Assembly: GCF_014217335.1 (NCBI RefSeq)
Contig: NZ_CP060092.1
Coordinates: 2,311,501 to 2,375,500, forward strand
Direction: 5' to 3'
DNA length: 64,000 nucleotides
Source of the DNA: Teredinibacter purpureus
GTDB lineage: Bacteria > Pseudomonadota > Gammaproteobacteria > Pseudomonadales > Cellvibrionaceae
The notes beneath the pieces are model-generated. The model saw nothing but the letters and a program-made list of their open reading frames with translations, searched no databases and had not been told where the DNA came from. Made by a program: the position numbers and the translations under genes. Positions 44,132 through 60,479 of this stretch are shown piece after piece (within the stretch, counting starts at the first letter, position 1; every line of letters starts with the position of its first letter).

Positions 44132-44182
44132 ATGAAATACATAAAGGATTTTATATGCGGTTCGTTGTGAATTTTTCTATTG
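44132..44182 (+). pseudogene. Disrupted start and signal peptide of the giant RHS gene
   Basis: In the same frame as the giant gene, an ATG at 44132 would give MKYIKDFICGSL, then an in-frame TGA at 44168-44170, then IFLLGVALFFASALVNAG. Alternatively the ATG at 44155, which has AAGGA seven to eight bases upstream, joins the main frame if the T5 run at 44172-44176 loses one T, giving MRFVVNFLLGVALFFASA. Either repair yields a good signal peptide; the only uninterrupted start, TTG 44180, has no ribosome-binding site. A point mutation, a frameshift or a sequence error is likely here. Confidence 0.55.
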
Positions 44183-47100
44183 GGAGTGGCTTTATTCTTT
44201 GCGTCTGCGTTAGTTAATGCTGGTACATTTAACCTTGGCGGTAGTGCGAACGGAGGAAAAGTCGATTACGATGGGACTTATACAATCACTTGGTCGGGCT
44301 ATGAAAGCCCCACGAGTTATGAAGATGTAACGGTTAAATTGTATAGAGGATCCAGTTCATCGGGAACTTTTCTAAGAAGCGGTACATCTGGAAGTTATAC
44401 CGAAACCAACAAAAGTAATGGTAAATACAGCTATTTCCTGCATGTATGTCGTCGCTCAATATATTATCAAGGAGCTGGATGCAGTAGCACTTCTGGTAGT
44501 GTGGTGTCGGCCATTGAGGTGGCGAAAACACCCAGCGCACCTAGCACTATTACTTTGACCGGTGGCACGCTGGATTGTGATCAGTCCATTGGTGTTAGCT
44601 GGTCGTCTGCTTCAGGTGGAAATCGCTATTCGCTTGAAGAAAGAAAAAGAAAAAATTCATCGAGTTCTTGGAGTTCCTGGAGCAATGTATCGTCAAATAT
44701 TGACAAGACATCATACGGGGCTCCGGCTTCTGATGCAGGTTATGACTATCAATATAGGGTGGCTGCCCGGTATTTAACTCCAAATGGAAATTACAGCGGG
44801 TATAGTTCTTGGGTGCTTTCGTCAGTCAAAACTAAACTTTTGTGCCGGAGTCCGCAACCACCTTCTGTTTCGACTACGATTTCTTCGGACGGAGATTATT
44901 CTATCTCGTTCAATGGTGGAACGGGTGCTAATAAGCTTAATGAGATTTCGGGCGGAGTAACCAAAGTTGTTGGAACGTCACGTGGACTGGGTTCAAAAGA
45001 AATTAGTTTGTCCAAGGGTAATGGTATTTATGAATACTATGTAACAGGATGTACGAAAAAGGGAACCTGCTTGGATTCAACCCGAGTTAAGGTTACGGCG
45101 AAAATGGTTGTTCCCAAGCCAACAGTAGATACGCTGGTTTCTAGATTTGGAAGTGTGGGAATAACGTATAACGGGTTCTCTGGCACAAATACTTTGTATA
45201 GAAATGGGGCTGCACTGGTTACCGCTAGCGGTACTGGAGCTAAATTTGTGCAGCGCTCGGAAGATAACGGCCTAAGCACTTACCACTTAACGGCGTGTAA
45301 TGTGGGCGGCAGTTGTGAGAACTCAGGAAGTGTTAGTGTCAAGGTGGTAAAAATTCCTGGAATACCAGGAGCTGTCCAGTTTTTCCCATTAAATTCGTCC
45401 ATGGAATGCGATACAAATTTTGAGCTTTCATGGGGGGCTGCAAGTGTGGGATCCCACTATCAAGTGCAAGAGCGAGCCCGTGCGCCGAGTGGTATGTGGT
45501 CGTCATGGACAACTAAAGCAACGGATATCAACGCGGGTAGTTATTCTCCAACAAATAGTTTGAGCTATATACCGTCGTCGCTTCCCGCTAATAGGGAATA
45601 TCAGTATCAGGTAAAGTCTAGGTATATCCTGCAAGGAGAGCATAGTGATTACAGCGGTTGGCAAATTTCAGCGGTGCAGTTGAAACCGCCCTGTGAGAAT
45701 CCCCCGAAGCCGATAATTGGAGAAAAACCCAGTTATGATGGTGTATTCGATATCACCTTTAAAGGGTTTGGCGGTACTAATGAACTCCTTTATAAAAAGG
45801 TTTCCGATGGATCGACAGGCGTATTGGCAACGCATTCCGGCTCATCAAATAAAGCAGTGTCTGTTCGATTGTCGAACGGCCAATACAAAATATTTGTAAG
45901 GGCTTGTACTCAGTTGGGGTCATGTTTTAACTCAGAAGATGTAGAGCAAGTCGTTGTTAAAGCGCCATCAATGCCATCAAACTTAAGAATTTCCGGGGTT
46001 ATGCCTAACTGTTGGGACGATGTTAAATTGGCATGGGACGGAACCATGTCGGACAGTGTTAGATACACAATTCAGCTTCTTGTGAATTCAGAATATGAAA
46101 ATGTTTGGGCAACTGTAGCTCAGGTTACAAACAGTAATGAAAAACCCTTAATAGATCTCGACGCCGGATATTCACGGATAAGCTATACATTTCGTATAGG
46201 CGCTCAATCTATTATAGGTGGCTATGTAAGCGATATGAGTGCCTATGCTCTCTATTCTGGATTCATCGGCCCACCTAAATGTCCTACTAATTTGGCGGCG
46301 CCTTCATCAGACGATCCGGTAAGTAAAGATGGAATTTACTCGATTGATTTCACTGGTTTTGAAACAAGCGAGTTATTTGAACGAAAGGTTGGTGGGGTGT
46401 GGGTGTCGGTGAAAACCGGGGGGGGAACGGGTGTTTATGTCGTTCCAGGCGCGAAGGGTTCGGGCATATACGAGTATTATGCAAGGGGGTGTTACAGCGA
46501 AGGTGTTAATACGGAGGGAGGTTGTCTTTCATCAGATATATATAAAGTATCGGTGGTACGAACGCCTGAAGTTCCAGGGTCGATTTCGTTCTCAGATGCA
46601 GACCCAGAGTGCGATACGGAGTTCGACCTCAATTGGGGGGCGTCTAACGGTGCAAATCGCTATACCATTAAAGAAAGGTCAAAATCAGTAGGTGCGTCAT
46701 CGTCGAAATCAGTAGGTGCGTCATCGTGGAGTCCTAACTGGCAAGTTATTGCAGAGGATGTAGTGGAAACACAGTTTGACCTACAAGGTATTGGGGCTGG
46801 TCGAGATTATCAGTATCAAGTATTGGCGAGATATAAAATAGAAGAAGCTTGGAGTGATAATAGTGCGGCTTCAATATCGGCCATTATCAGGAAGCCTGAG
46901 TGTTTCATTAGCGCTCCGACATTATCAGCGAATCGTTCTTTAGGTGAAAAATACACAGTAGCGTACGAAAGTTTTAAAGGGGCGAGTGCGCTGTTTGAAA
47001 GACGCGTCGATACTCAGTCGTGGAATGAAGTAGCATCGTCAAGCGGCAAGGGGCTTCATCAGTGGGAAGCAAACCATTCAAGCGGCGCTTACGAGTATTA

Positions 47101-50100
47101 CAGTCGGGCATGTACGGTTAGTGAAACTTGTATCGATTCGAAAGTCTCATCTCGTGTCTTCATAATAGCAAGCTCCGAAGATGGGCATGTTGAAGTTCCA
47201 GTATCTCCAGTTCTAGCCAGTCCCGCACTGGTAAGTGACGTAGAAAAAAATGCCACCGATCAAACGCTCAAGTTTAAAGGTGAAGCTTCTGTATCACCAA
47301 GCGGGTCGTTTACATACAGCATTTCGTTGAATGTCGCCCAAGGCACAGCCGCTTATAGTCCTTCAGTATCATTAAATTATGATAGCGCAGCAGGTAATGG
47401 TTTGGTTGGCCAGGGGTGGTCATTACGTGCGGCTGGAGCAATAAGTCGTTGTAGGCAGACGCTGAGTTTCGAGAGAAATGCTCAATCCATTGATTGGAGT
47501 GATAGTGATCGCTTCTGTTTAAATGGCGAACGTTTGGTTCTGGTATCTGGTGATACATACGGTGCGGTCGGTGCGGAATATAAAACAGCGGTTGATTCCC
47601 TGAATAAAGTGTACTCATTGGGTGGAACGAGGGGGCATCCGGATCGTTTTCGTGTTGAAAATAGAGGTGGTTCAATTTATCTATATGGTGGTGAGGGGCT
47701 GCATAATTCGGAGCTTGTTACGCAGGATGAACTCGCAGGCTCAAATGCTTCACAGGTGCTCACCTGGAAATTGTCAGAAACAAAAAATAAAGCCGGAAAT
47801 AGTATTGTTTATCAATATGGTAATCAGGACGTAACGGGGCATCGCTTGTCGAGTATTTATTATGCCTATGGCAGTGCTGATCCGGCTTTCAGTGTGCAAT
47901 CTTACAATGCACATGTTGAGTTTGAGTATAGTGACAGGCCAGATAAATTATATCGGTATGTGGGTGGTTATCAGTTCAATGAGCTTAAAAGGTTGTCTGG
48001 AATATTTGTCTACGCAAACGCAGGCTCCAGCGAAGCAGATATTTATCGATATTACAAAATTAATTATGAAGAAAGTGTGGAATTATCAAATGTTAAGAGT
48101 CATGTAGATTCTATTGAGGAGTGTATATCGTCAACAAATTGTATCGCGCCTATTGAATTTGAGCGGGTTGAAGCGCCCACACTAAATTTGACAACAGCGT
48201 TAAGCAGTATTGATTTAGGTGGCTGGGAAGCGCTTGTATGTAATTGTAATGAATCTGCCGATATGGTGCCTGATTATGTAAAAGCGTTCGCGGATATAAA
48301 TGGAGATGGCCTGCAAGATTTAATTTGGTATAAGGCAGGAAACGGCTTGAAATATGCTGTTCAATCCGATGCAGGTGTGTTTGTAGAGGAAAATTTTGAA
48401 AACGGACAGGCTATATCGCCCTACAGCCTTGGAATGGGCTCTAGTTGGGTACCGTTAAAGGTTAAGCTAGAACCGATGGATATTAACAACGATGGGCGAA
48501 TGGATATAGCGGTGTTTGTATCCGATCACGTAAACAGTATGTCTGTTGGGGAGTGGTCATTATTTTTATCGGTATATACAAACGATAAATGGCAGCTTAA
48601 GAAAATGACAGACTTTGTCATGCCGTCCAATAGCGGCAGGCTTCAGTTTGCCGATCTGAATACAGATGGATTGATAGATGCTGTTAAAGGCCCTGGTGAT
48701 GGGGCAATGGAGTTCTACTACCTTGAAAGAGATCCTGCAAAAAGTGTAACAAGTAACCTGCCTTACAGATTTTCGGAACAAAAAGTACCGGCAAATAATT
48801 CAGCGGTATTGAGTGGTACGGATGAAGAACTTGATTTTCGAGGGTATGTAGGAGGTGATCCGGTTATTCGAGAAGTCGACTGGCTGGCAAGCGGTGATTT
48901 CAATCGAGATGGACGGCTGGATTTCGTGGGCTTTGCCCACTTTAAAGAAAACCTTGGGCCGACCAGTGTATATGCTGATTGTAAATTTAGAGATTATTTG
49001 TTTGTTGCAAATATAACGGGTGATTTTAATAGTCCGGAGTTGAGCGTCAGCTCGGTTTTGTGGCAAAACGGTCCATATTCATTTGAGAGGGTTGGGCTTA
49101 GCGGTTACTACGATTGCGAGTCAGTAACCTCCTCGAACCGAATGACCGGTGGTGTGGTTTCCACTTCAGATATAAATGGCGATGGTATATCCGATATCGT
49201 TTTCACGGATACCATCACCGCGTACTACGGTAGTACGGGGTTTAGAAACGTTTATGTTTCGCTTGGTACTGATAGGCAAGGTGAATTTTTGCCGGCGGTG
49301 AATGTTCTGACGGAAAACGATTTTGTTCCGGGAACTTTTGAAACGGATGATCTTGCTCAATCAGACACCTTTAATCTGCAAGTTGTCGATTGGGATAATG
49401 ACGGAGACAAAGATCTGATATGGCAAGTCAAGAGCTCAGGTAAAGTTTATCTTAAGCGTTGGGATGAAGAGGGGTACGAGTCGGGTTATAGTGTTTTATT
49501 TGCTGATGATACACGCAAGGTTATAAATCAGTTTATAGACATTAATGGAGATGGGCAGGTAGACCGCTTGCGCACAGATAGCACCACCGGAAGCGAGTAT
49601 TTTTACGAAGGTGAAGATCAAACAGTATCTGACCTTGTTTACAAAGTAATGTTGGGCGATGGCGAAGAAGTGAGTGTTCAATATGAAAAGATGAACCGGT
49701 CAGATAGCTACATCGGATTTGGCGAAACTGTTATAACAACCGCTTCGCAAGAAGTTATTGGTTTTGGTAGCGGCCCCTTATGTTCAGAGGTTCCGCCTGG
49801 GGCGTCTGAATGCAGGGAAGAAATAAGAACAGGGCGTGTTCTTTACTCTACAAATAGATCCTTTTCTGCTGACGAGATGTACGCTGAGCTGGGCGATCCG
49901 TTTGCCAATTTAAGATCGGAAGAAACATCTCTGGAGCAGACGACAGCCCACAGTCGGATACCTGTATGGGAAATGTCTGGTGCACTGCCTTTGGTCGTTA
50001 ATTTGAGTCGCTCGGTTCCAAAAGCATTAGTAGGTCCTGGAGCTATTTCCGCGCAAAATAAGGAACAGCAAGAGTACACCTATAGCGGTGCGCGTATACA

Positions 50101-53100
50101 GGCAGGAGGCAGAGGGTTTCTTGGTTTTGAGCAGGTGTCGGTATTTGATTCACGCTCTGCATTGCTTACCGTTACAGGTTATCGGCAGGATTGGCCTTTC
50201 ATTGGTAAAAAGCGCTTCGAGTCGGTGTTTACAGATACGGGAAGTAAATTAGTCGAGTCGGCTTTTATCTCATCCATTAGCGGATTTCAGAGCGACTGGG
50301 TGCAAACCTCGCAAATAAGTGGAAGCGCCAGTTTGGGGGCGCTGCTTGTCTACGAAAAACAGGTCGATCAAAGCAAATATGACCTTGCTGAAAACGGTAC
50401 CGTTCAAGGCGCTTTGCTTTTGCGTGAGCAAAATGAAGTTATTGATATTGATGTGTTTGGAAATATCATTGAAGAACAGAAAGCGCTATACGATAGCGCT
50501 AATACGTTATTTGAGCGAATTACCACTACCAATACCTACGGTGCTGACGATAAAGATAAATTTTGGGGTTTGTTACAAACCCAGTCGGTAGCGACGCACC
50601 GCCCATCAGCAGAAGTGCAAACACAAACCCGCGCAACCCAGTATAGCTATTACGACAGAGATGGAGAGTGTTTTAGTAGCAGCTTTGGTTATGCGGCAAA
50701 CAAACTCGAAGGCTTGCTGTGCAACCAAACAGTAGAACCGGATAGTGTCGAATTGGCCGTAACCACCACCTTTATATACGATGAAAATGGCAACCTTCAA
50801 TTCTCTTTGGCAAGTGACGTAAATCAATCAGATTATCGTTTATCACCCTTCACGCAATATGATCCGGCAGGGCGCTATGTAGAGGCTGTTTATGGCGTAT
50901 TCAGCCAGAGTGCGGGTGAATTATCAGGGGGTTCGGATTATTACCAGAGTCTTGCTGCAGAAATGGATCTGTCTGTGCAATGGCAAACCCAAGTGATAAG
51001 CCGTGACCGCTTCGGTACACCAACAGAAACGCAAACCCATTTGGGTAATGGAGCCGTTCTCACCAGTGTTGTAGGTACATCAAATTACGGCATTCCTGTT
51101 TTTACCGCTGATGATACGGGTAACGCTATTATCAATACCGCCTATGATGCTGGGGGTGATCCAGAAAGTCTATGTCCTGCTAGCGCTACCATTCTGCGTG
51201 CTCAAACAATGGCTGGTGGCAGCGAAACTCGTGTGTGTGAAGACATGCGAGGCCGTAACATCCGTACCTTAACAAAAAGTTTTAACGGTGGCTGGTCGGT
51301 TATCGATACCGAATATGACAGTTTGGACAGAATACGCCATCAATCAGAGCCTTATGCCCTTTCTCAGGGGGATGCTCTTTCTGAGGGGGGCGGAGTATGG
51401 ACAAGCACGGTCTACGACCTGCTTGGTCGTCCAACGCGTATCAACCACGCTTTCCATGTAGTCGACGATGAGGGCGAAAGCACGGGCGCTCGTGCATATT
51501 CGCGGTTTAGATATAGCGGGTTTATCACCGTTTCTGACAGCCCAGAGCGCAAACTCACAACAAAAACGGTCAATGTGAAAGGCGAATTAACCAGTGTTCA
51601 GGATCACGATGGCAACATCGTTCAATATGAGCACGATGTCTACGGTAATTTGACCCTGATGAATGATGCCGGAACAGGAGGGAACAGTACACATATTCAA
51701 TACGATGCGCTCGGGCGCAAAACCGGCATGACGGACCCAGATAAAGGTACCTGGGCCTATAGCTACACAGTCTTTGGTGAGTTGGAATGCCAAACGGACG
51801 CCAAAGGTCAAACGCAACGATACATATACGATGGAAGAGGCCGTGCAACGCAACGGATAGACAGCAATAACAACAGTGACTGTAGCGCTACCGGTAGTGG
51901 CACTACCAGCTATTGGGAATACGACCTTGCAGCGAACGGTTTGGGCAAACTGAGTGATGAATATATATCGGATTCAGGCTTCCAGCGCATCTATTCCTAC
52001 GATGCTTTGGGTCGTAATACTGTTACAGAAACGGTGATACAGGGTGTGGGCAGCGAAATCAGTCATTTCAGCAAAACAACCTACGACGAATACGGGCGAA
52101 TCTGGCAAAGCTTCGATGCCGGTCGAAAAGGAGAAGACTTTACTCATAATGGCGTAAAAACCTTGTACAACAGTTATGGGTATGTATCGGCCCTTGTGGA
52201 TGCCAGCGTGAGCGAAGCGGGCGAACCGGTTCGCCATTACTATGAAATTCAGGAAACCGACGCCCGTGGTAATGTAACGCAAGCCGTGTTAGGTGAAGGC
52301 GTGATAACCACCAACGCCACCTACAATGCGCGAACGGGCAGGGTGGAAAATATAACGGCCAGCAACCTCTATGGCACAGCCGTTGGCAATCCCATACAAA
52401 ACCTGAATGTGCGCTGGAGCACAGTGGGCAATGTGGTGTACCGGGAGGAAACCGGCTGGGGAGAACGCGTAGACAGGCCGCAAAACATTAAGGAGCAGTT
52501 CCAATACGATAACCTCAATCGCCTCCGGTACTACACACTAAGCGGCGATGCGAGCGGAACTCAGGAAGTTACCTACAATGCCATTGGCAACATCCTCAGC
52601 AAAACAGACGTTGCCGAGGGCGCGCAATACAGCTACGGAACAGGCAACACTAGCGCCGCCAACGATGCCGGCCCCCATGCTGTCACGGCGATAGGCAATG
52701 TTAGCTACCTGTACGACAACAACGGTAATCTGCTATATGAAAGGGAAAATAACGAAGTTAAACGTAGCTTTAGCTACACCCTTGCAGACCAGATAAGCCA
52801 AATCAGCACTTCTGCCGGAAGGGTGCAATTCAGCTATGGTCCGGACAGGCAGCGCTTTAAGCGGGTCGATACCACTGCGGGTAATAAAACCACCACCACC
52901 CTGTACCTGGGAGGTACAGAAAAAATCTATTACAGCGATGCGGTTGAGTGGAAGCGGACAATAGGTGGCATTGCACAAGTCACCCACACGCTGGATCTTA
53001 CCGAAACCTCCGAACAAGGCCAGCAGCTCCACTTCCTGCTGCGTGATCACCTCGGGTCTATCACCCATATTGTTGATCAGTTCGGGCTGCCGGTGCAGAG

Positions 53101-54232
53101 CATGGCCTTCGACCCCTGGGGTAAGCGCAGAAATGCAAGCGACTGGGCAGCGTTAGAAGAAGGGGGACTGAACAGTTTTGCCAAGGCCGCCAAGCCCATC
53201 ACCTCCCGCGGGTTTACTGGGCATGAAATGATTGATGGCGCCGACATTATTCACATGAACGGGCGCATCTACGACAGCCACCTGGCAAGGTTTGTTCAGG
53301 CCGACCCGATCATACAGGCGCCAGAAGTACTGGGCAGCTTGAACCGTTATTCGTATGTGTGGAACAATCCGCTAAACATGACCGACCCGAGTGGATATAT
53401 GGGGTGTCGTGTGCCACCGGATATGCAACGGGCGATGCCGATATATGACGTGTATAGCGAATCTTCAAGCGGGTATGATGTCACCCTGACTTATGACGAT
53501 GGTTCTCCACAAACCTTCTTTTTGTCTGATTCATTTGTTGATTCGGCTACTGGTGAAGTGGATCAGGGCTGGGCCGATGCGGTGGTTGATGCTTCTGGGG
53601 GGAGGTTTGGTAGAAACGTTACGGGGTATTTTAACGAACAGGGCGAGCCCTTATTGGCTTCGGATAATGGGCCAAGTGGAAATTTGGTAGAAGATCCGAC
53701 GCTGAAGTCGGCGTTGGAGGTTGTGGAGGGTGAGGTTGCACAAAAGGGAAAATTTGAACCAGTTGTTGATACAAGTATACCGTTTGCTACGGAAGAAGGC
53801 GCAATGAGGGCGTTAGATACTGTAGTTCAAAACGAATACAATAAAACAAACGGCCAATACGAATATATGGGATTTGTTGTTAAAAATAGTGATGGGCAAT
53901 ATTTTATGACTGATGTAGGGACAACTAATGATGCGTATGGGGTAACGTTTAATCCGACCAAAGTTTATCAAGCGGGTTATACCGTTGAGGTAATTCATCA
54001 TCACCACACGGCGACTGCAATATTTTCACCCGCTGACATAAGTGTTTCTGGTGATCCTATCTATCTTCGGGCTTTCCCCAATATGAGAGTAACTTTAAGG
54101 TATCAAAATGAACTTCGATTTTATCAATCCGGGGCGGGAATGAAAACTTTAAGCAGAACGCGGGCGCAGTCCTTGGGTGTTCAGCCGGGCTCGTCACGTG
54201 GTCAGTCTTGTGAAAAATATAAGTGTTATTAA
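44180..54232 (+). CDS. Giant SpvB/FG-GAP/RHS polymorphic toxin with a DUF4329-like C-terminal tip
   Basis: 3350 residues. Residues 1-15 (GVALFFASALVNAG) look like the end of a signal peptide. About 20-1010 hold alternating fibronectin-III-like and Ig-like modules (EYQYQV and YEYY...C repeats). About 1030-1290 is SpvB-like; 1370-1800 carries FG-GAP/VCBS motifs (DINGDGLQDL, DINNDGRMDI, DFNRDGRLDF, DINGDGISDI, DWDNDGDKDL). RHS repeats occupy about 2400-3000 and the RHS core ends YVWNNPLNMTDPSGY (about 3055-3070). A 120-residue linker precedes the variable tip (from about 3189) with VEVIHHHHTATAIFSPADI, which resembles DUF4329/JAB-like toxins. The RHS shell normally encloses and releases the tip. 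The TTG at 44180 is a poor start, see the entry at 44132. Confidence 0.85.
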   Translation: MGVALFFASALVNAGTFNLGGSANGGKVDYDGTYTITWSGYESPTSYEDVTVKLYRGSSSSGTFLRSGTSGSYTETNKSNGKYSYFLHVCRRSIYYQGAGCSSTSGSVVSAIEVAKTPSAPSTITLTGGTLDCDQSIGVSWSSASGGNRYSLEERKRKNSSSSWSSWSNVSSNIDKTSYGAPASDAGYDYQYRVAARYLTPNGNYSGYSSWVLSSVKTKLLCRSPQPPSVSTTISSDGDYSISFNGGTGANKLNEISGGVTKVVGTSRGLGSKEISLSKGNGIYEYYVTGCTKKGTCLDSTRVKVTAKMVVPKPTVDTLVSRFGSVGITYNGFSGTNTLYRNGAALVTASGTGAKFVQRSEDNGLSTYHLTACNVGGSCENSGSVSVKVVKIPGIPGAVQFFPLNSSMECDTNFELSWGAASVGSHYQVQERARAPSGMWSSWTTKATDINAGSYSPTNSLSYIPSSLPANREYQYQVKSRYILQGEHSDYSGWQISAVQLKPPCENPPKPIIGEKPSYDGVFDITFKGFGGTNELLYKKVSDGSTGVLATHSGSSNKAVSVRLSNGQYKIFVRACTQLGSCFNSEDVEQVVVKAPSMPSNLRISGVMPNCWDDVKLAWDGTMSDSVRYTIQLLVNSEYENVWATVAQVTNSNEKPLIDLDAGYSRISYTFRIGAQSIIGGYVSDMSAYALYSGFIGPPKCPTNLAAPSSDDPVSKDGIYSIDFTGFETSELFERKVGGVWVSVKTGGGTGVYVVPGAKGSGIYEYYARGCYSEGVNTEGGCLSSDIYKVSVVRTPEVPGSISFSDADPECDTEFDLNWGASNGANRYTIKERSKSVGASSSKSVGASSWSPNWQVIAEDVVETQFDLQGIGAGRDYQYQVLARYKIEEAWSDNSAASISAIIRKPECFISAPTLSANRSLGEKYTVAYESFKGASALFERRVDTQSWNEVASSSGKGLHQWEANHSSGAYEYYSRACTVSETCIDSKVSSRVFIIASSEDGHVEVPVSPVLASPALVSDVEKNATDQTLKFKGEASVSPSGSFTYSISLNVAQGTAAYSPSVSLNYDSAAGNGLVGQGWSLRAAGAISRCRQTLSFERNAQSIDWSDSDRFCLNGERLVLVSGDTYGAVGAEYKTAVDSLNKVYSLGGTRGHPDRFRVENRGGSIYLYGGEGLHNSELVTQDELAGSNASQVLTWKLSETKNKAGNSIVYQYGNQDVTGHRLSSIYYAYGSADPAFSVQSYNAHVEFEYSDRPDKLYRYVGGYQFNELKRLSGIFVYANAGSSEADIYRYYKINYEESVELSNVKSHVDSIEECISSTNCIAPIEFERVEAPTLNLTTALSSIDLGGWEALVCNCNESADMVPDYVKAFADINGDGLQDLIWYKAGNGLKYAVQSDAGVFVEENFENGQAISPYSLGMGSSWVPLKVKLEPMDINNDGRMDIAVFVSDHVNSMSVGEWSLFLSVYTNDKWQLKKMTDFVMPSNSGRLQFADLNTDGLIDAVKGPGDGAMEFYYLERDPAKSVTSNLPYRFSEQKVPANNSAVLSGTDEELDFRGYVGGDPVIREVDWLASGDFNRDGRLDFVGFAHFKENLGPTSVYADCKFRDYLFVANITGDFNSPELSVSSVLWQNGPYSFERVGLSGYYDCESVTSSNRMTGGVVSTSDINGDGISDIVFTDTITAYYGSTGFRNVYVSLGTDRQGEFLPAVNVLTENDFVPGTFETDDLAQSDTFNLQVVDWDNDGDKDLIWQVKSSGKVYLKRWDEEGYESGYSVLFADDTRKVINQFIDINGDGQVDRLRTDSTTGSEYFYEGEDQTVSDLVYKVMLGDGEEVSVQYEKMNRSDSYIGFGETVITTASQEVIGFGSGPLCSEVPPGASECREEIRTGRVLYSTNRSFSADEMYAELGDPFANLRSEETSLEQTTAHSRIPVWEMSGALPLVVNLSRSVPKALVGPGAISAQNKEQQEYTYSGARIQAGGRGFLGFEQVSVFDSRSALLTVTGYRQDWPFIGKKRFESVFTDTGSKLVESAFISSISGFQSDWVQTSQISGSASLGALLVYEKQVDQSKYDLAENGTVQGALLLREQNEVIDIDVFGNIIEEQKALYDSANTLFERITTTNTYGADDKDKFWGLLQTQSVATHRPSAEVQTQTRATQYSYYDRDGECFSSSFGYAANKLEGLLCNQTVEPDSVELAVTTTFIYDENGNLQFSLASDVNQSDYRLSPFTQYDPAGRYVEAVYGVFSQSAGELSGGSDYYQSLAAEMDLSVQWQTQVISRDRFGTPTETQTHLGNGAVLTSVVGTSNYGIPVFTADDTGNAIINTAYDAGGDPESLCPASATILRAQTMAGGSETRVCEDMRGRNIRTLTKSFNGGWSVIDTEYDSLDRIRHQSEPYALSQGDALSEGGGVWTSTVYDLLGRPTRINHAFHVVDDEGESTGARAYSRFRYSGFITVSDSPERKLTTKTVNVKGELTSVQDHDGNIVQYEHDVYGNLTLMNDAGTGGNSTHIQYDALGRKTGMTDPDKGTWAYSYTVFGELECQTDAKGQTQRYIYDGRGRATQRIDSNNNSDCSATGSGTTSYWEYDLAANGLGKLSDEYISDSGFQRIYSYDALGRNTVTETVIQGVGSEISHFSKTTYDEYGRIWQSFDAGRKGEDFTHNGVKTLYNSYGYVSALVDASVSEAGEPVRHYYEIQETDARGNVTQAVLGEGVITTNATYNARTGRVENITASNLYGTAVGNPIQNLNVRWSTVGNVVYREETGWGERVDRPQNIKEQFQYDNLNRLRYYTLSGDASGTQEVTYNAIGNILSKTDVAEGAQYSYGTGNTSAANDAGPHAVTAIGNVSYLYDNNGNLLYERENNEVKRSFSYTLADQISQISTSAGRVQFSYGPDRQRFKRVDTTAGNKTTTTLYLGGTEKIYYSDAVEWKRTIGGIAQVTHTLDLTETSEQGQQLHFLLRDHLGSITHIVDQFGLPVQSMAFDPWGKRRNASDWAALEEGGLNSFAKAAKPITSRGFTGHEMIDGADIIHMNGRIYDSHLARFVQADPIIQAPEVLGSLNRYSYVWNNPLNMTDPSGYMGCRVPPDMQRAMPIYDVYSESSSGYDVTLTYDDGSPQTFFLSDSFVDSATGEVDQGWADAVVDASGGRFGRNVTGYFNEQGEPLLASDNGPSGNLVEDPTLKSALEVVEGEVAQKGKFEPVVDTSIPFATEEGAMRALDTVVQNEYNKTNGQYEYMGFVVKNSDGQYFMTDVGTTNDAYGVTFNPTKVYQAGYTVEVIHHHHTATAIFSPADISVSGDPIYLRAFPNMRVTLRYQNELRFYQSGAGMKTLSRTRAQSLGVQPGSSRGQSCEKYKCY
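46679..46726 (+). repeat. In-frame 24-base tandem duplication within the giant RHS gene
   Basis: Two copies of a 24-base unit ending in AAATCAGTAGGTGCGTCATCG, differing at one base, encode KSVGASSS and KSVGASSW in a fibronectin-III-like module. It adds eight residues to a loop and looks like a recent slippage or unequal-exchange event. Confidence 0.85.
53124..53748 (+). repeat. RHS core 3' segment, first copy of a long direct repeat
   Basis: This stretch is repeated at 57073-57697 with, by eye, one synonymous change (GAT/GAC in EVDQGW) and one difference at the last shared codons (Q/H). It spans the end of the RHS core, DPSGY and the 120-residue linker. The sequences diverge completely after the KG codons, where the two toxin tips begin. 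Confidence 0.9.
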
Positions 54233-54292: not shown

Positions 54293-54547
54293 ATGAAAAT
54301 TTTCGTGATCTATTTTTTTACTGTTTTTATTTTGTATTCTTCTCCATCGTTTTCATTGCCTGACGCGTGTGCGAAATACGTAAACGATTTTGTCCAAACA
54401 ATGGAGAAAGACAGTGTTCGTTTAGAAACAACAAAGGACCGAAAAGAGTGGATTTATAAGGAATTGCAGCGAATAAAGCAACTACGTGAAAAATTACCGG
54501 ATTGTGATGTAAAGCATAAGTTGGAATTACCAGATAGCCACACCTGA
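54293..54547 (+). CDS. Small signal-peptide protein: immunity candidate, or N-terminal half of a TGA-interrupted gene
   Basis: 84 codons: a signal peptide (IFVIYFFTVFILYSSPSFS) and a short charged, probably helical region (RKEWIYKELQRIKQLREK) with two Cys. It starts 60 bases after the giant RHS stop. One reading is that it is the immunity protein for the DUF4329-like tip, in the usual place. The other is that it is the N-terminal half of the next gene: the TGA at 54545-54547 is in the same frame as the DUF2778 sequence, and the frame is otherwise open from 54293 to 55012. The second seems slightly more likely because the region after the stop (LCAQKTQEQLENGYARV) continues the same helical character. 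Confidence 0.5.
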   Translation: MKIFVIYFFTVFILYSSPSFSLPDACAKYVNDFVQTMEKDSVRLETTKDRKEWIYKELQRIKQLREKLPDCDVKHKLELPDSHT

Positions 54548-55012
54548 GACAACAATAATAGTAAAGGACAACTTTGTGCACAAAAGACGCAGGAGCAGCT
54601 AGAAAATGGCTATGCACGGGTTTTAGCTACAACCGAGAATATTGAAGATGGGTTGGTGTGGAATACTGAATTTGGGCGTTGGGAGCACTATAGGGATGGA
54701 GAGCTTTTTCAGTCAGGTAAGGGGTATTCTGGGGGCGGAAACGGGGAAAATGCTTTTGCGTATAACAACCCGAGAGCAGATGTTTTAAAAGATATCGGGC
54801 CCGCTCCTGCCGGTACATACATTGCTGAAAGGCGCACTTCCGACGGTTGGATTCGCTTATGGCCTGCACCCGATAACCAGATGTATGGGCGAGATGATAT
54901 TTTTATACATGGAGATGCTGGTTTCTTCGGTGATGCTTCACGGGGATGTTTGATTATTCAGCAAAGTCAGAGGAAGTATATACGTACTGGAACCATGGTG
55001 TGGATAAAATGA
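54548..55012 (+). CDS. DUF2778-like (Tlde1-type L,D-transpeptidase fold) toxin domain, start unclear
   Basis: The frame is open from 54548; the first plausible start is TTG 54653, without a ribosome-binding site. The domain reads WNTEFGRWEHYRDGELFQSG, GKGYSGGG, IGPAPAGTYI and ends with a catalytic-type IHGDAGFFGDASRGCLI, matching the His...Ser-x-Gly-Cys signature of DUF2778. Family members such as Tlde1 act in the periplasm on peptidoglycan tetrapeptides and are type VI effectors or RHS tips. Here it is either a displaced RHS tip or the C-terminal half of a secreted protein interrupted by a TGA. Its stop overlaps the next gene (ATGA), as expected for a toxin-immunity pair. Confidence 0.65.
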   Translation, partial: DNNNSKGQLCAQKTQEQLENGYARVLATTENIEDGLVWNTEFGRWEHYRDGELFQSGKGYSGGGNGENAFAYNNPRADVLKDIGPAPAGTYIAERRTSDGWIRLWPAPDNQMYGRDDIFIHGDAGFFGDASRGCLIIQQSQRKYIRTGTMVWIK

Positions 55013-55689
55013 TTTTGAAATGTAAGGGTTTTGTAAAATTACTTGCGCTTTCAATTAGTTTAGTTGTTTGTTTTCCGGGTTTTGGCGACGAGCAAGACTT
55101 AAACTATCTGGGTGTGATATTGAATAAAGAATTACGGCTTTTCCCTAAGAATATTGGTGGTGTTGATGTTTCGGATTTTCTAATAGATGGAATGACCGGG
55201 AAGTTATGTCTTGTAGATGAAGGGAAGGTCGTCGTTTTTTTGATTGACGGTAACCCCGAAAAGAAAACTTATTCTGTTAGAGGAGTAAAAAACCTTCCAA
55301 AAACTGACAATGTCGTTGATTGTTTTGTTAGTGCTGAGGAGTTGCATAGCATCGAAGGCATTTCTTTTGGGGAAAGGGTCAACTCTGTTGTTAGCAGGTT
55401 TATGGGAGCTGGTTTCGTTCTATCAAAGAAATCTGATGAGAGAACTATTTACCTGTATAAAACAATAGCAGGCCAAGCAAGCTGCCATTATTTTAACGAT
55501 CCGTTTGAGGGCGAATATTCGGTGTATGGTGAACCGAAAAGCCTAGTATCTTATGTGCTTAAAAGTGACTCGGAGAGTAAAGTTGTAGCGGTGGAGATGT
55601 ACGCATCTCGCGATATAGAGCCCATGTCAGGAACATGCCCAGAAAAGAATGACGAAAAGAATATAAAAGGGACATCCACAAATTATTAA
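55009..55689 (+). CDS. Signal-peptide protein, candidate immunity protein to the DUF2778-like toxin
   Basis: 226 residues from ATG 55009, which overlaps the toxin stop by four bases (ATGA). A Sec signal peptide (LLALSISLVVCFPGFG) sends it to the periplasm, where a peptidoglycan-acting DUF2778 toxin would have to be neutralised. The mature part is a mix of beta and helix with four Cys (LCLVDE, VDCFV, SCHYF, GTCPE). No known immunity family is recognised. The coupling and location are the evidence. A terminator follows. Confidence 0.6.
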   Translation: MILKCKGFVKLLALSISLVVCFPGFGDEQDLNYLGVILNKELRLFPKNIGGVDVSDFLIDGMTGKLCLVDEGKVVVFLIDGNPEKKTYSVRGVKNLPKTDNVVDCFVSAEELHSIEGISFGERVNSVVSRFMGAGFVLSKKSDERTIYLYKTIAGQASCHYFNDPFEGEYSVYGEPKSLVSYVLKSDSESKVVAVEMYASRDIEPMSGTCPEKNDEKNIKGTSTNY

Positions 55690-55736
55690 GCCTTGACTAT
55701 TTTTCTCAAAGCCCAGCCCGAAAGCTGGGCTTTTTG
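55669..55736. terminator. Terminator with shared cassette-end sequence (first copy)
   Basis: GCCCAGC-CCGAAA-GCTGGGC followed by TTTTT at 55711-55735. The preceding GGGACATCCACAAATTA (55669-55685) and CTTGAC recur exactly upstream of the second cassette's terminator at 58669, suggesting a common 3' end for these toxin-immunity modules. Confidence 0.75.
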
Positions 55737-55739
55737 GTT

Positions 55740-55814
55740 TTAGCGAGCAAGGCTCTTAACCATTTGTTTGGTTTGGTGCTTCACCAACATTCCTTCGATC
55801 ATTTCCCCGCCCAA
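55740..55814 (-). pseudogene. 3' fragment of an unidentified minus-strand gene cut off by the RAYT element
   Basis: Read on the minus strand, the last 24 codons before a TAA give LGGEMIEGMLVKHQTKQMVK plus SLAR, protein-like and ending against the bidirectional terminator. The frame is cut at 55815 exactly where the RAYT element starts. The equivalent place in the second module holds a helix-turn-helix gene. No family is identified. Confidence 0.3.
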
Positions 55815-57069
55815 CAAATAATCGGACAGCCACGTTAAGTGAAAAACAATCAGTTTAGTTGTGGTTTTTATTAAACCCATCACGCCATAGGCGCTATTTC
55901 ATTACTGTTTGTTTTTGGCGTGAAATATTTGATTTTTCTGAATTTCAGACGAGTCTAGCCGCTCTCTAGGTTCGAGAAAGGTAGGGTTTATTGCCGGATG
56001 GGGTGTTAGTGGAAAATGGCTTCGCAATTCGCGAAGGCCGGTCTTCTTTTCAATCCTAGAACTTTGGCAGCGAGCATGAGTTTTGCTTTGCAGCCGACTA
56101 AGCTTTTGAATGTGGATTCGAATTGGGTGGTGAGTGTGAGCCATTCGCGGCTGGTTATATTCAATCGCTCTAGAATGGGTGGCAAGTTGTTGTCGATAAA
56201 ACCACGTTTGTTTTCTCGAATCGCTCTGCCTGTTATGTCCACGAGCTGAATGTAATCCTTCAGGTGAAAGGGTAAGCCTTGGGGCATGGGTTCTCTTGGG
56301 TTGCCTACAAATTTAGCCAGTTTTAAAGGTTGAGTGTTAGCCGCTTTAAGGGCCTCAATACGCCGTTTTATAGAGGTATGTTCCGAGCTTTCTGGGGTTG
56401 TCGCCATTTTGGCTCGAACAGGATTTAAATCGACATAAGCCATGCAAGCGGCGAGTGCTTTTTCATCCAGTAACGCCTGTGATTTAAACCGGCTTTCCCA
56501 AAAACGACCTGTGCAGTGGTCTTCTGCATTTGCCCTGCGGGCAATGGGTTCGTTTAAAGCCCACATGAAACGACTTATGCTGGCGAGTTCCAAGCGCCAT
56601 TGGTCCAGCTTTTCTTTCACGGCCTGCCGCTGGGCGTCATCTAACGGCCCACCTTTTACAAACGCTTGCGTTAAGGGGGTACCTTTGTAAAGGGTGTGCC
56701 AGCGTTTGGCTACCTCTAAATCGCTTAACGTGTGAGCCTCTGCGGCATTAATATGCAATACCAGATGGTGGTGATTACTCATTACGGCGTAAGCACAGAT
56801 GTCAATGCAAAACACTTCCCCCAGGAATACAATACGGTCTTCAACCCACTGTCGGCGGTGTTCGTAGTCGTTACCGGTTAACGCATCTAGGCCGCAAAGA
56901 AACGCGCGGCGCACACAGCGAGATGTGCAGTGATAGTAGGGTGTGGCATCTAGTGAGATTTGTTGCTTCCTTGGGCGGGGCATGGCTCATTCCTTGAGTT
57001 AACTTTTGCTGTTTTAATATACAGCGTTGTTTTTCTTGGATCAAGCGGTGGTGTGGGTGTCCGAGAAAC
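55815..57069 (-). mobile_element. RAYT (REP-associated tyrosine transposase) element, copy 1
   Basis: 1255 bases repeated at 59201-60479 with roughly 1% differences plus one 24-base insertion. Near the ends lie 12-base inverted repeats, TCGGACAGCCAC (55822-55833) and GTGGGTGTCCGA (57053-57064), with 11 of 12 paired. A second inverted repeat TCACGCCA/TGGCGTGA (55880-55887, 55916-55923) lies inside the left end. It encodes one Y1 transposase. The right end sits three bases before the displaced RHS core copy. Confidence 0.75.
56006..56983 (-). CDS. REP-associated tyrosine (Y1/HUH) transposase, copy 1
   Basis: 325 residues. N-terminal Y1_Tnp domain with ATPYYHCTSRCVRRAFLCG, the HUH motif in YAVMSNHHHLVLHI, and family segments DHCTGRFWESRFKSQ and AYVDLNPVRAKMA. 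RAYT enzymes are single-strand DNA transposases related to IS200/IS605 that mobilise REP palindromes; most are single-copy and immobile in a genome, so two nearly identical copies here are notable. The C-terminal part (DYIQLVDITGRAI, LKRRPAFANCEAIFH) is the extension found in gammaproteobacterial members. Confidence 0.9.
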   Translation of the reverse strand: MPRPRKQQISLDATPYYHCTSRCVRRAFLCGLDALTGNDYEHRRQWVEDRIVFLGEVFCIDICAYAVMSNHHHLVLHINAAEAHTLSDLEVAKRWHTLYKGTPLTQAFVKGGPLDDAQRQAVKEKLDQWRLELASISRFMWALNEPIARRANAEDHCTGRFWESRFKSQALLDEKALAACMAYVDLNPVRAKMATTPESSEHTSIKRRIEALKAANTQPLKLAKFVGNPREPMPQGLPFHLKDYIQLVDITGRAIRENKRGFIDNNLPPILERLNITSREWLTLTTQFESTFKSLVGCKAKLMLAAKVLGLKRRPAFANCEAIFH

Positions 57070-57072
57070 TTT

Positions 57073-57697
57073 AGCGCAGAAATGCAAGCGACTGGGCAGC
57101 GTTAGAAGAAGGGGGACTGAACAGTTTTGCCAAGGCCGCCAAGCCCATCACCTCCCGCGGGTTTACTGGGCATGAAATGATTGATGGCGCCGACATTATT
57201 CACATGAACGGGCGCATCTACGACAGCCACCTGGCAAGGTTTGTTCAGGCCGACCCGATCATACAGGCGCCAGAAGTACTGGGCAGCTTGAACCGTTATT
57301 CGTATGTGTGGAACAATCCGCTAAACATGACCGACCCGAGTGGATATATGGGGTGTCGTGTGCCACCGGATATGCAACGGGCGATGCCGATATATGACGT
57401 GTATAGCGAATCTTCAAGCGGGTATGATGTCACCCTGACTTATGACGATGGTTCTCCACAAACCTTCTTTTTGTCTGATTCATTTGTTGATTCGGCTACT
57501 GGTGAAGTGGACCAGGGCTGGGCCGATGCGGTGGTTGATGCTTCTGGGGGGAGGTTTGGTAGAAACGTTACGGGGTATTTTAACGAACAGGGCGAGCCCT
57601 TATTGGCTTCGGATAATGGGCCAAGTGGAAATTTGGTAGAAGATCCGACGCTGAAGTCGGCGTTGGAGGTTGTGGAGGGTGAGGTTGCACATAAGGG
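57073..57697 (+). repeat. Displaced RHS core 3' segment, second copy
   Basis: Nearly identical to 53124-53748. In-frame codons upstream of the first ATG (57177) run back to a TAG at 57072-57074, so the copy begins abruptly at the RAYT edge. It supplies homology by which recombination could swap the following toxin tip onto the intact gene. Confidence 0.9.
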
Positions 57698-58154
57698 TGT
57701 AAGTACAAACTTGCTTAGCTTTTTTCAAGATGAAGCGTTTCACAAGGAGTTTGCTGAACAGTATCCATTTGAATATTCAAAATGGTTGGAGTTTGCATCA
57801 AGCTATGAGATTTCTGCTTTCAATGCTGCAAATTTTGGTGGGGAGATTCGGCAGCTAGCGTGGCTAGAATTTAATGACCATATCACTGATGTCTCGATGA
57901 CGGTTCACTTGAAGGGTATAGCCGGGTCGTTCTCCGGACATGTTATTCCAGGGCCATTGAATAAAGCCGAGGTGTGGCATATAAAAGATATTTATGATGG
58001 GGTTGGAAAGATTTCTAGCAATCAGGTTTTGATGGAGACTTCTTTGATAATTGCGAAAGGCCCCCAATATTTTAATGAAAACCTATTCCGTTCCTATTAT
58101 GGCAGTGGGTTTGATTCTAGGCTCACAGGTATATATAAGGAGACACGAAAATGA
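57177..58154 (+). CDS. Orphan RHS C-terminal tip with unrecognised toxin domain
   Basis: 325 residues from ATG 57177, which has no ribosome-binding site, as expected for a silent displaced tip. Residues 1-172 repeat the end of the giant RHS protein (RIYDSHLARFVQADP, NNPLNMTDPSGY and the linker). From about 173 the sequence is new: LSFFQDEAFHKEFAEQYPFE, then WLEFNDHITDVSMTVHLKG, SGHVIPGPLNKAEVWHIKD. I recognise no family. The D/H/E content of WLEFNDHITD and SGHVIPG could be catalytic, but this is a guess. The stop overlaps the next ATG by four bases. Confidence 0.75.
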   Translation: MIDGADIIHMNGRIYDSHLARFVQADPIIQAPEVLGSLNRYSYVWNNPLNMTDPSGYMGCRVPPDMQRAMPIYDVYSESSSGYDVTLTYDDGSPQTFFLSDSFVDSATGEVDQGWADAVVDASGGRFGRNVTGYFNEQGEPLLASDNGPSGNLVEDPTLKSALEVVEGEVAHKGVSTNLLSFFQDEAFHKEFAEQYPFEYSKWLEFASSYEISAFNAANFGGEIRQLAWLEFNDHITDVSMTVHLKGIAGSFSGHVIPGPLNKAEVWHIKDIYDGVGKISSNQVLMETSLIIAKGPQYFNENLFRSYYGSGFDSRLTGIYKETRK

Positions 58155-58648
58155 AGAATAGTTCAAATGTGATGGTCGTTAATATTGCACGGTTGTTAGT
58201 TATATTTGGTGTATTAATTGGCTTTTCTCACCAAGCTGCATCTAAGGGTGCGGGTGCCGAAATGCAAGGGTTTGATAAAAACTTTGTGGTGGATCTACTT
58301 TTATTAGATTTGGGTGAAGATCTTAAAGTATTCGGTGAGATTGCAATGGTAGAAGGGGTTTCCCAATCTACGATATTGGTTATGCAGCAATCAATTTTCA
58401 GGAAGCTTTTACTTGTCTATTCTTACAAACCTCAGCTGCCTGAATTGAAAGGTGAACCATTGGAATCGCTGTGTATCATCTCTACTGGTAGCGTGGCGAG
58501 CTTATTAAATGGAGGTGGTTTCAAAAAAGAATTAGTATCTATTTTGGATGAGTATTTCAGCTCATTTCAAGATGATGTGAAAGGGAAGATTGCTGATATT
58601 CAGAGTTCCTTGAAAGGGGATGGGTGCTTTATAGGCGGCTCTCAATAG
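58151..58648 (+). CDS. Signal-peptide protein, candidate immunity protein of the orphan tip
   Basis: 165 residues with a strong AAGGAGA ribosome-binding site at 58137-58143 and a start overlapping the toxin stop (ATGA). The N-terminus (VVNIARLLVIFGVLIGFSHQAAS) is a signal peptide, so the product is periplasmic or membrane-linked; the rest is mostly helical (VVDLLLLDLGEDLKVFGEIA, CFIGGS at the end). Location and coupling suggest immunity. Having its own ribosome-binding site means it can be made even when the tip is silent. No family recognised. Confidence 0.65.
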   Translation: MKNSSNVMVVNIARLLVIFGVLIGFSHQAASKGAGAEMQGFDKNFVVDLLLLDLGEDLKVFGEIAMVEGVSQSTILVMQQSIFRKLLLVYSYKPQLPELKGEPLESLCIISTGSVASLLNGGGFKKELVSILDEYFSSFQDDVKGKIADIQSSLKGDGCFIGGSQ

Positions 58649-58668
58649 CCATCAGGCAAAAATACTCT

Positions 58669-58735
58669 GGGACATCCACAAATTAAAAAAACTTGACAAA
58701 CTCTTCTCCAAGCCCAGTCTATCGCTGGGCTTTTT
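58669..58735. terminator. Terminator with shared cassette-end sequence (second copy)
   Basis: AGCCCAG-TCTATCG-CTGGGCT followed by TTTT, preceded by the same GGGACATCCACAAATTA found at 55669. Convergent with the helix-turn-helix gene. Confidence 0.75.
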
Positions 58736-58738
58736 GGT

Positions 58739-59107
58739 TTAAGGAGCTGCTTGCTGGATAACGGTATCGAGCATATCCATCACAAATTTTTGCTTGGACT
58801 TGGGTAGCTGGCTGATCTGTTCTACCTGCTTTAGCAGCTTGGGCGCGGGGCCGCGTTTTTTGCTGTTGTCTTTGCTGTCGCTGTTGGTAATCCCGATTAA
58901 CTCTTCCACCGATACCGCCAGCACCTCTGCCAGCGTTGGCAGCATGGACGATGGCACCTTCCTCCTGCCCGCTTCAAACGCCTGCATGTACTGCTGGGAG
59001 ATTCCCAGAATCTCTGCCAGTTGCACCTGCGTAATCTGCTGTTCCTTTCGCAAAGACGCAATCTTGCGTCCCAGTTGCTTGAAAAAGTCGTTGTCGTTCT
59101 GAGTCAT
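58739..59107 (-). CDS. XRE-family helix-turn-helix regulator
   Basis: 122 residues from ATG 59107. The Cro/CI-type helix-turn-helix is LGRKIASLRKEQQITQVQLA then EILGISQQYMQAFEAGRRKV, followed by MLPTLAEVLAVSVEELIG and a basic, helical C-terminus ending FVMDMLDTVIQQAAP. The frame stays open upstream through two copies of the RAYT left end, but that extension is translated repeat and is excluded. It is convergent with the immunity gene and lies between the orphan cassette and RAYT copy 2; it may regulate neighbouring genes or be an antitoxin-like protein without partner. Confidence 0.8.
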   Translation of the reverse strand: MTQNDNDFFKQLGRKIASLRKEQQITQVQLAEILGISQQYMQAFEAGRRKVPSSMLPTLAEVLAVSVEELIGITNSDSKDNSKKRGPAPKLLKQVEQISQLPKSKQKFVMDMLDTVIQQAAP

Positions 59108-59131
59108 CTTGTCTAGGTAGTGGGCTATCAC

Positions 59132-59200
59132 CAAATAATCGGACAGCCACGTTAAGTGAAAAACAATCAGTTTAGTTGTGGTTTTTATTAAACCCATAGG
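59132..59200. repeat. Solo copy of the RAYT element left end
   Basis: The first 65 bases of the RAYT element, including TCGGACAGCCAC (59139-59150), are repeated directly in front of RAYT copy 2, followed by TAGG. Compared with the full element, the solo copy lacks TCACGCCA, one arm of the internal inverted repeat. It looks like a trace of an earlier insertion or of end duplication. Confidence 0.8.
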
Positions 59201-60479
59201 CAAATAATCGGACAGCCACGTTAAGTGAAAAACAATCAGTTTAGTTGTGGTTTTTATTAAACCCATCACGCCATAGGCGCTATTTCATTACTGTTTGTTT
59301 TTGGCGTGAAATATTTGATTTTTCTGAATTTCAGACGAGTCTAGCCGCTCTCTAGGTTCGAGAAAGGTAGGGTTTATTGCCGGATGGGGTGTTAGTGGAA
59401 AATGGCTTCGCAATTCGCGAAGGCCGGTCTTCTTTTCAATCCTAGAACTTTGGCAGCGAGCATGAGTTTTGCTTTGCAGCCGACTAAGCTTTTGAATGTG
59501 GATTCGAACTGGGTGGTGAGTGTGAGCCATTCGTGGCTGGTTATATTCAATCGTTCTAGAATGGGTGGCAAGTTGTTGTCGATAAAACCACGTTTGTGTT
59601 CTCTAATCGCTCTGCCTGTTATGTCCACGAGCTGAATGTAATCCTTCAGGTGAAAGGGTAAGCCTTGGGGCATGGGTTCTCTTGGGTTGCCTACAAATTC
59701 AGCCAGTTTTAAAGGTTGAGTTGAGGGGTGAGTTAAGGGGTGAGTGTTAGCCGCTTTAAAGGTCTCAATACGCCGTTTTATAGAGGTATGTTCCGAGCTT
59801 TCTGGGGTTGTCGCCATTTTGGCTCGAACAGGATTTAAATCGACATAAGCCATGCAAGCGGCGAGTGCTTTTTCATCCAGTAACGCCTGTGATTTAAACC
59901 GGCTTTCCCAAAAGCGACCTGTGCAGTGGTCTTCTGCATTTGCCCTGCGGGCAATGGGTTCGTTTAAAGCCCACATGAAACGACTTATGCTGGCGAGTTC
60001 CAAGCGCCATTGGTCCAGCTTTTCTTTCACGGCCTGCCGCTGGGCGTCATCTAACGGCCCACCTTTTACAAACGCTTGCGTTAAGGGGGTACCTTTGTAA
60101 AGGGTGTGCCAGCGTTTGGCTACCTCTAAATCGCTTAACGTGTGAGCCTCTGCGGCATTAATATGCAATACCAGATGGTGGTGATTACTCATTACGGCGT
60201 AAGCACAGATGTCAATGCAAAACACTTCCCCCAGGAATACAATACGGTCTTCAACCCACTGTCGGCGGTGTTCGTAGTCGTTACCGGTTAACGCATCTAG
60301 GCCGCAAAGAAACGCGCGGCGCACACAGCGAGATGTGCAGTGATAGTAGGGTGTGGCATCTAGTGAGATTTGTTGCTTCCTTGGGCGGGGCATGGCTCAT
60401 TCCTTGAGTTAACTTTTGCTGTTTTAAAATACAGTTTTGTTTTTCTTAGATCAAGCGGTGGTGTGGGTGTCCGAGAAAC
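59201..60479 (-). mobile_element. RAYT element, copy 2
   Basis: 1279 bases, same orientation as copy 1, with the same ends TCGGACAGCCAC (59208-59219) and GTGGGTGTCCGA (60463-60474). With copy 1 it brackets the orphan tip, its immunity gene and the helix-turn-helix gene, giving a structure like a composite transposon of about 4.7 kb. Confidence 0.75.
59392..60393 (-). CDS. REP-associated tyrosine (Y1/HUH) transposase, copy 2
   Basis: 333 residues, nearly identical to copy 1. The HUH motif SNHHHLVLHI is retained. It differs by an eight-residue insertion (repeat of the type THPLTHPSTQPL) caused by a 24-base GGGGTGAGTT-type duplication, and by a few substitutions (such as KL for AL region, E for K in LAEFVG, H for N in REHKRG). 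Both copies look intact. Confidence 0.9.
   Translation of the reverse strand: MPRPRKQQISLDATPYYHCTSRCVRRAFLCGLDALTGNDYEHRRQWVEDRIVFLGEVFCIDICAYAVMSNHHHLVLHINAAEAHTLSDLEVAKRWHTLYKGTPLTQAFVKGGPLDDAQRQAVKEKLDQWRLELASISRFMWALNEPIARRANAEDHCTGRFWESRFKSQALLDEKALAACMAYVDLNPVRAKMATTPESSEHTSIKRRIETFKAANTHPLTHPSTQPLKLAEFVGNPREPMPQGLPFHLKDYIQLVDITGRAIREHKRGFIDNNLPPILERLNITSHEWLTLTTQFESTFKSLVGCKAKLMLAAKVLGLKRRPAFANCEAIFH

Follow-up and report, generated by a model that had tools for sequence, protein, structure and literature searches.

Arrays of orphan RHS toxin tips formed by C-terminal displacement were reportedly described by Jackson in 2009. In such arrays a core fragment, a tip and an immunity gene stand in tandem, and the gain and storage of tips by RHS and other polymorphic toxins are usually ascribed to recombination with stand-alone cassettes (PMC3482391; this and the other articles cited by number were available in part, and statements about them refer to those parts). 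The locus described here has a similar tandem layout, but mobile-element ends stand at its module borders. It lies at positions 55815-60479 of a 64,000-nucleotide stretch of the genome of the marine bacterium Teredinibacter purpureus (the window, C1:2311501-2375500; the genome comprises two contigs and is 100% complete), where two copies of an element with a HUH/Y1 transposase enclose an RHS core fragment, an orphan tip and a candidate immunity gene. The element is multicopy with defined ends, its insertions keep one sense relative to replication, its partial copies stop beside other ends, it is enriched near RHS cores, and identical cassette pieces recur at distant loci. We lean, without great assurance, towards the reading that elements moving as single strands insert repeatedly at RHS arrays and that recombination between their copies reshuffles the cassettes.

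The nearest described enzymes belong to TnpA_Y1 subclass 2.3 (Quentin et al. 2018, PMC6006769), which is reported to be multicopy, with the HuH motif NHYH, a mean copy identity of 74.8%, no identifiable REP-like structures (REP, repetitive extragenic palindrome) beside the gene and a role that was left open. The transposase of the present element fits this subclass by its length of about 325 amino acids (aa), its YVDLNP motif and its several copies per genome, and not by a subclass profile; gammaproteobacterial hosts are also shared. It differs in its HuH motif, which is NHHH here (NHYH is the consensus of 23 relatives), in the 97-100% identity of its main family and in its defined ends; the word 'rhs' is absent from the available text of PMC6006769. 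The HUH and Y---NP motifs are present: an alignment of 23 sequences shows no variation at H71, H73, Y183, N187 or P188. An earlier note on this DNA had named the enzyme a REP-associated tyrosine transposase (RAYT, or TnpA_REP). Its RAYT-like HUH/Y1 character holds, whereas the closer fit is to subclass 2.3, a multicopy relative of RAYTs. It scores 40.7 bits against NCBIfam REP_Tyr_transpos, for which the curated cut-off is 80, and is therefore RAYT-like rather than an NCBI-named RAYT; Pfam gave no match at E 0.01. In a structure search, 4er8, a REP-bound RAYT with the same HUH/Y1 fold, was the best and sole PDB match at E <= 0.001 (2.3e-4, probability 1.00, TM 0.58 by target, root-mean-square deviation 10.6). 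That search used a model from the 23-sequence alignment (mean pLDDT 83.2); the single-sequence model had a mean pLDDT of 39.1.

Other relatives share single features. In TIRtrons (TIRYT; Di Nocera et al. 2013, PMC3733652), Y1 genes are likewise flanked by terminal inverted repeats, which can be single, dimeric or grouped, the closest published parallel found for the arrays of ends reported below; their motif is GGGGWSAS, with no toxin link found in the available text of PMC3733652, whereas the motif here is GGACAnCC. The IS200/IS605 elements (IS608, ISDra2) have the same HUH/Y1 core, and lagging-strand template targeting is known for them, but their enzyme has about 150 aa (PMC6006769), while the enzyme here, with 325 aa, is twice as long and is accompanied by nested arrays of ends. 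The features of the window to which the argument refers, including open reading frames (ORFs) and a helix-turn-helix (HTH) gene, are as follows.

44180..54232, plus strand: full-length RHS gene (3350 aa) with tip A, an ORF; RHS core match at C1:2364611-2364895
53124..53748, plus strand: RHS core stretch, repeated at 57073-57697 and twice at 4.51 Mb
54293..54547, plus strand: immunity candidate A (84 aa), directly after tip A; function predicted from position; no Pfam match
54577..55807, plus strand: orphan Tlde1-domain cassette, 1231 bp, 100% identical at 1.4856-1.4869 Mb
54653-55012, plus strand: Tlde1-domain ORF, PF10908 above its cut-off
54946-55689, plus strand: immunity candidate in the Tlde1 cassette, an ORF overlapping the Tlde1-domain ORF
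55815..57070, minus strand: element copy 1 (RAYT1), 1256 bp; transposase at 56006-56983, 325 aa, PDB match 4er8
57073..57697, plus strand: RHS core fragment, 625 bp, just past the right end of copy 1; it matches 53124-53748 of the full-length RHS gene at 99.7% identity
57177..58154, plus strand: ORF of core fragment and orphan tip B; Rhs_assc_core, TIGR03696 above its cut-off
58151..58648, plus strand: immunity candidate B, with a 4-bp overlap with the tip B ORF; no Pfam or NCBIfam match
58739..59107, minus strand: HTH gene; best NCBIfam match the RstR family, below cut-off
59132..59197, minus strand: partial left end, 66 bp (element positions 1-66), 100% identical, adjoining copy 2
59201..60479, minus strand: element copy 2 (RAYT2), 1279 bp; transposase at 59392-60393, 333 aa

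The two copies are 97.1% identical with one gap and lie in the same orientation, and both have the inverted ends TCGGACAGCCAC (left) and GTGGGTGTCCGA (right). The earlier note had claimed such a pair with inverted ends, bracketing a displaced RHS tip, its immunity candidate and an HTH gene; all of this is borne out, and like arrangements occur elsewhere. It had not recorded the third, partial left end at 59132-59197, the orphan Tlde1-domain cassette between the full-length RHS gene and copy 1, or the position of copy 1, which stands where the homology of that cassette with a locus at 1.48 Mb (L014) stops (55807), inside an HTH gene there. The organization expected of an RHS polymorphic toxin with an orphan tip, namely a core followed by a variable tip and a small neighbour gene, is present at 57177-58648; the toxicity of tip B and the role of immunity candidate B are predicted from position. 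Tip B (residues 172-325) has no relative except itself among 5.8 billion proteins, and its stretch (window 57692-58154) is possibly a new toxin domain. Pfam gave weak matches or none for ten tips and small ORFs, and for tip A only a DUF4329 match below cut-off. Ahead of the full-length gene, window 41040-41719 holds two stretches 41-46% similar to RHS protein in different frames, apparently a decayed RHS relic, and a perfect 32-bp palindrome lies at 62292-62323.

The multicopy state of the element is plain in this genome, where ten places match the transposase at 97-100% over at least 200 aa and a second element family has three copies with equal scores at 55%. Eight copies are near-complete, from the left end to the right-end region, counting L013, whose right end is without its last bases, and L009, which has an internal deletion. 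Five of the eight (L009, L010, L011, L012 and L013) carry the same insertion at element position ~1206, the product of which is an ISL3-family transposase; one insertion sequence (IS) at one position in five copies points to spread of the element in its already interrupted form, although the IS may instead have entered the same site more than once. The left end (hereafter END) is marked by a 16-mer, AAATAATCGGACANCC, with 43 exact matches in the genome against 0 for a reversed control pattern. With the identity over kilobases, these counts mean that the copies are not due to chance. The 43 ENDs group into 19 loci, which rules out the hundreds of dispersed repeats of a RAYT with its REPs: here the enzyme is multicopy and mobile-looking, with few, clustered ends. 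The earlier note had started from RAYTs as mostly single-copy domesticated enzymes; that premise fails, as subclass 2.3 is reported multicopy (PMC6006769) and the multicopy state in this genome excludes a single-copy domesticated RAYT. Across 106 transposase matches at 94 loci, GGACACCC occurs exactly within 260 bp upstream in 27 and GGGTGTCC or GGCTGTCC within 500 bp downstream in 15; both words accompany 12, and such ends are therefore common to part of the family. In at least 6 places there is a repeated element of ~295 bp that is headed by another type of END, AAATAATCGGACACCCATGTTAACG, and in which no transposase gene was seen (own-genome examples at C1:829840, 1477814, 2591274, 2631691 and 2949625, in L043, L046, L049, L050 and L052).

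ENDs are distributed by strand. The 26 exact plus-strand ENDs all lie at 0.83-2.98 Mb and the 17 minus-strand ENDs all at 3.76-4.51 Mb; one further END, with a mismatch, is at 2682851 on the minus strand. The dnaA gene is at 875 kb. The GC skew reverses close to 0.83 Mb, as sampled in 5-kb steps, and at a point within 3.25-3.48 Mb, as judged from 20 samples. If the origin lies at the skew turn, all 19 loci have one sense relative to replication (17/19 if it lies at dnaA), the single orientation expected of IS200/IS605-type lagging-strand transposition, and the strand reading AAATAATCGG is then the lagging-strand template.

Pieces of the locus recur far away. Locus L010 (4.50-4.51 Mb) carries two stretches of the window, 52229-54586 at 99.5% and 55815-57696 at 100%, with END pieces between them; another tip with a small ORF and a truncated element follow. 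The second of these stretches, 1882 bp made up of copy 1 and 624 bp of RHS core, is thus 100% identical at 4.508-4.510 Mb, 2.1 Mb away, and is joined there to a different tip. At L014, window 54577-55807 recurs at 100% between two second-family copies whose ends do not adjoin it. The same RHS core continues into different tips, with the tip border TGCACA(A/T)AAG at the 6 places read, and the sequences to either side of copy 1 differ in origin. The earlier note had also proposed that the copies might serve as direct repeats for loss or gain of the cassette; near-identical copies could indeed do so, and the identical pieces at distant loci accord with it.

Its other proposal, that 55815-60479 is mobilised as a composite unit, fared worse. 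The IS2-like element of Burkholderia thailandensis has a DDE enzyme. A composite transposon of such elements around contact-dependent inhibition (CDI) genes, 210 kb long and with its circle proven by experiment, is the precedent (PMC6350997); same-type IS copies around a polymorphic-toxin system are common to both cases, whereas the present one is known from sequence alone. Two same-orientation copies around a toxin cassette would agree with joint movement of the whole piece in that manner. However, only the left 1,882 bp recurs in this genome, joined to another tip, and no second full copy of 55815-60479 was found there among the 40 of 63 candidates that were scored. A classical composite transposon is therefore not supported and was rejected as the main explanation; the copies also show 2.9% divergence and a gap, the unit contains a partial END and the neighbours of copy 1 differ in source, all of which makes joint movement very improbable. 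When 8,472 bp of the region was compared with 37 other genomes, there were matches in 24, chiefly to the transposase gene but also to some short stretches on the HTH side and of RHS core, and no empty site was seen. A misjoining of repeats during assembly is hardly credible: 1882 bp at 100% in two places is the kind of repeat that misleads short-read assembly, but the genome is in 2 contigs and 100% complete, records place the tip B protein on two contigs (up to 4,662,140 bp long, against 4,643,613 bp here) and like arrangements are present in other genomes.

The transposase was found at E 1e-60 in 38 of 145 genomes sampled from the order, this one included. Outside this genome there are 89 copies in 37 genomes, 28 of which have RHS cores and hold 66 of the copies (the other 23 copies, in genomes without an RHS core, are left out of the 66). 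Eleven of the 66, spread over 9 of the 28 genomes, have an RHS core within 5 kb, where 0.59 would be expected under a random placement that ignores contig breaks; in this genome the figure is 7 of 10. For controls in the same 28 genomes, IS110 gave 2/24 (Fisher p 0.50), rve 1/81 (Fisher p 0.0012) and the two pooled 3/105 (Fisher p 0.0027), which makes the excess near RHS clear against chance and against rve, and not against IS110 alone. All 11 RHS-near copies are on the tip side, a position partly forced by the RHS gene itself, which occupies the other side. In 80 further loci (80 of 591 confirmed stretches, whose species may overlap those of the sampled genomes), an RHS core frame is present in six, all with the transposase on the tip side; two of the six (L084 and L087) are from one genome.

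These counts also bear on the unlikely alternative that RHS loci are insertion hot spots for any mobile element and that tips are displaced by ordinary RHS C-terminal displacement with the element uninvolved. The IS110 frequency, the ISL3 IS, IS66-like (named by eye) and IS110 elements in these regions, and tips that share the border TGCACA(A/T)AAG without adjoining an element all agree with it. Against it stand the single rve copy of 81 near RHS and the RHS core, tips, HTH or primase-like genes that are cut exactly at ENDs or right ends.

Individual loci in relatives also combine element and toxin modules, with tip and immunity labels assigned by position and by eye. In L173, from congener G148, an RHS gene and small ORF are followed by a transposase, a tip-like frame that stays open up to and through an END at 5979-5992, and a small ORF; beyond these lie an IS66-like element (by eye) and an END at 9876-9889, after which a shorter RHS ORF and a small ORF precede a transposase that a further IS66-like element interrupts. 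In L145 a second HINT-type tip (PT-HINT, below cut-off) stands between two small ORFs, with RHS ahead of the first and a transposase behind the second, and in L132 small secreted paralogues are interspersed with an RHS ORF and three transposase copies, one of which is shortened. The paralogues, one of them near DUF5992 below cut-off, lie between transposase copies in L132:11115-16776 and beside a transposase in L149:4235-5123. In genome G069 all 20 matches to its own END, with up to 3 mismatches, are confined to a 1.85-kb stretch that has an RHS-linked ORF on one side and the transposase on the other; as all 20 are in one array, the pattern is silent on replication.

Junctions show where copies begin and stop. 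In 20 own-genome loci, all eight END-anchored partial copies of at least 60 bp that stop short break off no more than 8 bp from a further AAATAATC pointing the same way; L009:11066-11394 is END-anchored and stops short too, but the remainder of the element comes after it (an internal deletion), and it is left out of the eight. Among the 40 of 63 candidates that were scored, most partial copies are anchored at an END and one, at 2751143, is a right-end relic. In L010, a full copy is preceded by three repeats of a 53-bp unit that includes a 27-bp END, and two tip-like stretches end at ENDs. In L009 a 25-bp END adjoins an RHS core frame, and a frame that resembles, by eye, the DnaG-type zinc-finger ORF of L014 (PF01807) ends at an END. 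Both loci (L014:8813-9475 and L009:10439-11066) have an HTH gene and then a DnaG-type zinc-finger ORF cut at an element end, perhaps from an old mobile element next to the cassettes. Among 7 full copies, 15 of 36 informative-site pairs are in four-gamete conflict, which fits exchange between copies or recurrent mutation.

A fixed left terminus with a variable far side recalls the IS91/ISCR elements, which have Y2 rolling-circle enzymes. It has been considered that the present element, with its Y1 enzyme, is mobilised in that polar, one-ended manner and that RHS core, tip and immunity DNA are its cargo; here such capture is hypothetical, and we regard the idea as a minor possibility. Polar carriage is a candidate because the identity over 1882 bp at 4.5 Mb sets in at the END of copy 1 and extends past the element's right end into RHS core; the predominance of END-anchored partial copies, the END adjoining RHS core in L009, the frame open through an END in G148 and the G069 array point the same way. 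The same pattern also results, however, where an element inserts into an older copy and the right part is lost; END loci were partly picked by an END search while right ends were not searched genome-wide, and the L014 cassette does not adjoin element ends. An extended form, also tentative and somewhat doubtful, is that subclass 2.3 elements are polar tip vehicles that would cut at a fixed END on the lagging-strand template, take along adjoining RHS core, tip and immunity DNA of variable length and land chiefly beside existing ENDs, and that END arrays growing behind RHS genes would record tip turnover.

Under the favoured reading, repeated insertion followed by recombination, the enzyme would use the lagging-strand template as single-stranded DNA, which would give insertions a single sense relative to the fork. 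New copies would join via the left END at many places, often within older copies, and would often land in or beside RHS toxin-immunity arrays, severing tip modules from the RHS gene and leaving orphan cassettes. Near-identical elements and RHS-core fragments would then provide repeated homology through which homologous recombination may duplicate cassettes, swap them between distant loci or delete them. The bracketed unit would be both a product of and a substrate for such shuffling, and not a composite transposon moving as one piece; any effect on toxin use is likewise conjectural.

Several observations weigh against this account. Mobility was observed at no step. The identity of the 4.5-Mb copy begins at END, which recombination need not do, and the incompatible sites may reflect recurrent mutation. 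One diverged transposase at 4501132 violates the strand rule, and an IstB control (matches read as IstB, one of them confirmed) already fits it in 6/8. Most copies (55 of 66) are more than 5 kb from any RHS core, orientation to RHS is mixed (9 same, 2 opposite) and IS110 does not differ from the element in its proximity, so that RHS loci may attract mobile elements generally. The earlier note had held that copies at unrelated sites in relatives would count against its proposal, and this is partly what was found: six stretches around copies in congener G150, like L174, L175 and L177, are without an RHS core frame.

Two further features stand out in this genome. In L012:11788-12733 a HINT + EndoU-type toxin ORF precedes a small ORF; an element copy is ~4 kb away, and a relic of an RHS core is close by. 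L014:1-5700, L011:3600-6900 and L013:800-3000 contain runs of small genes that, with their repeats of ~110-126 bp, are integron-cassette-like by eye; integrases were not searched for.

No publication linking a REP-associated tyrosine transposase and rhs was found in a search of mostly non-subscription literature, judged largely by title and abstract start. A link to RHS would bear on TnpA_Y1 subclass 2.3, the role of which was left open in the 2018 classification (PMC6006769). A multicopy single-strand-type transposase with recognisable ends beside RHS cores is a concrete, testable candidate agent of tip gain and storage, and the arrangement suggests a way in which bacterial toxin-immunity weapons could be duplicated and shuffled.

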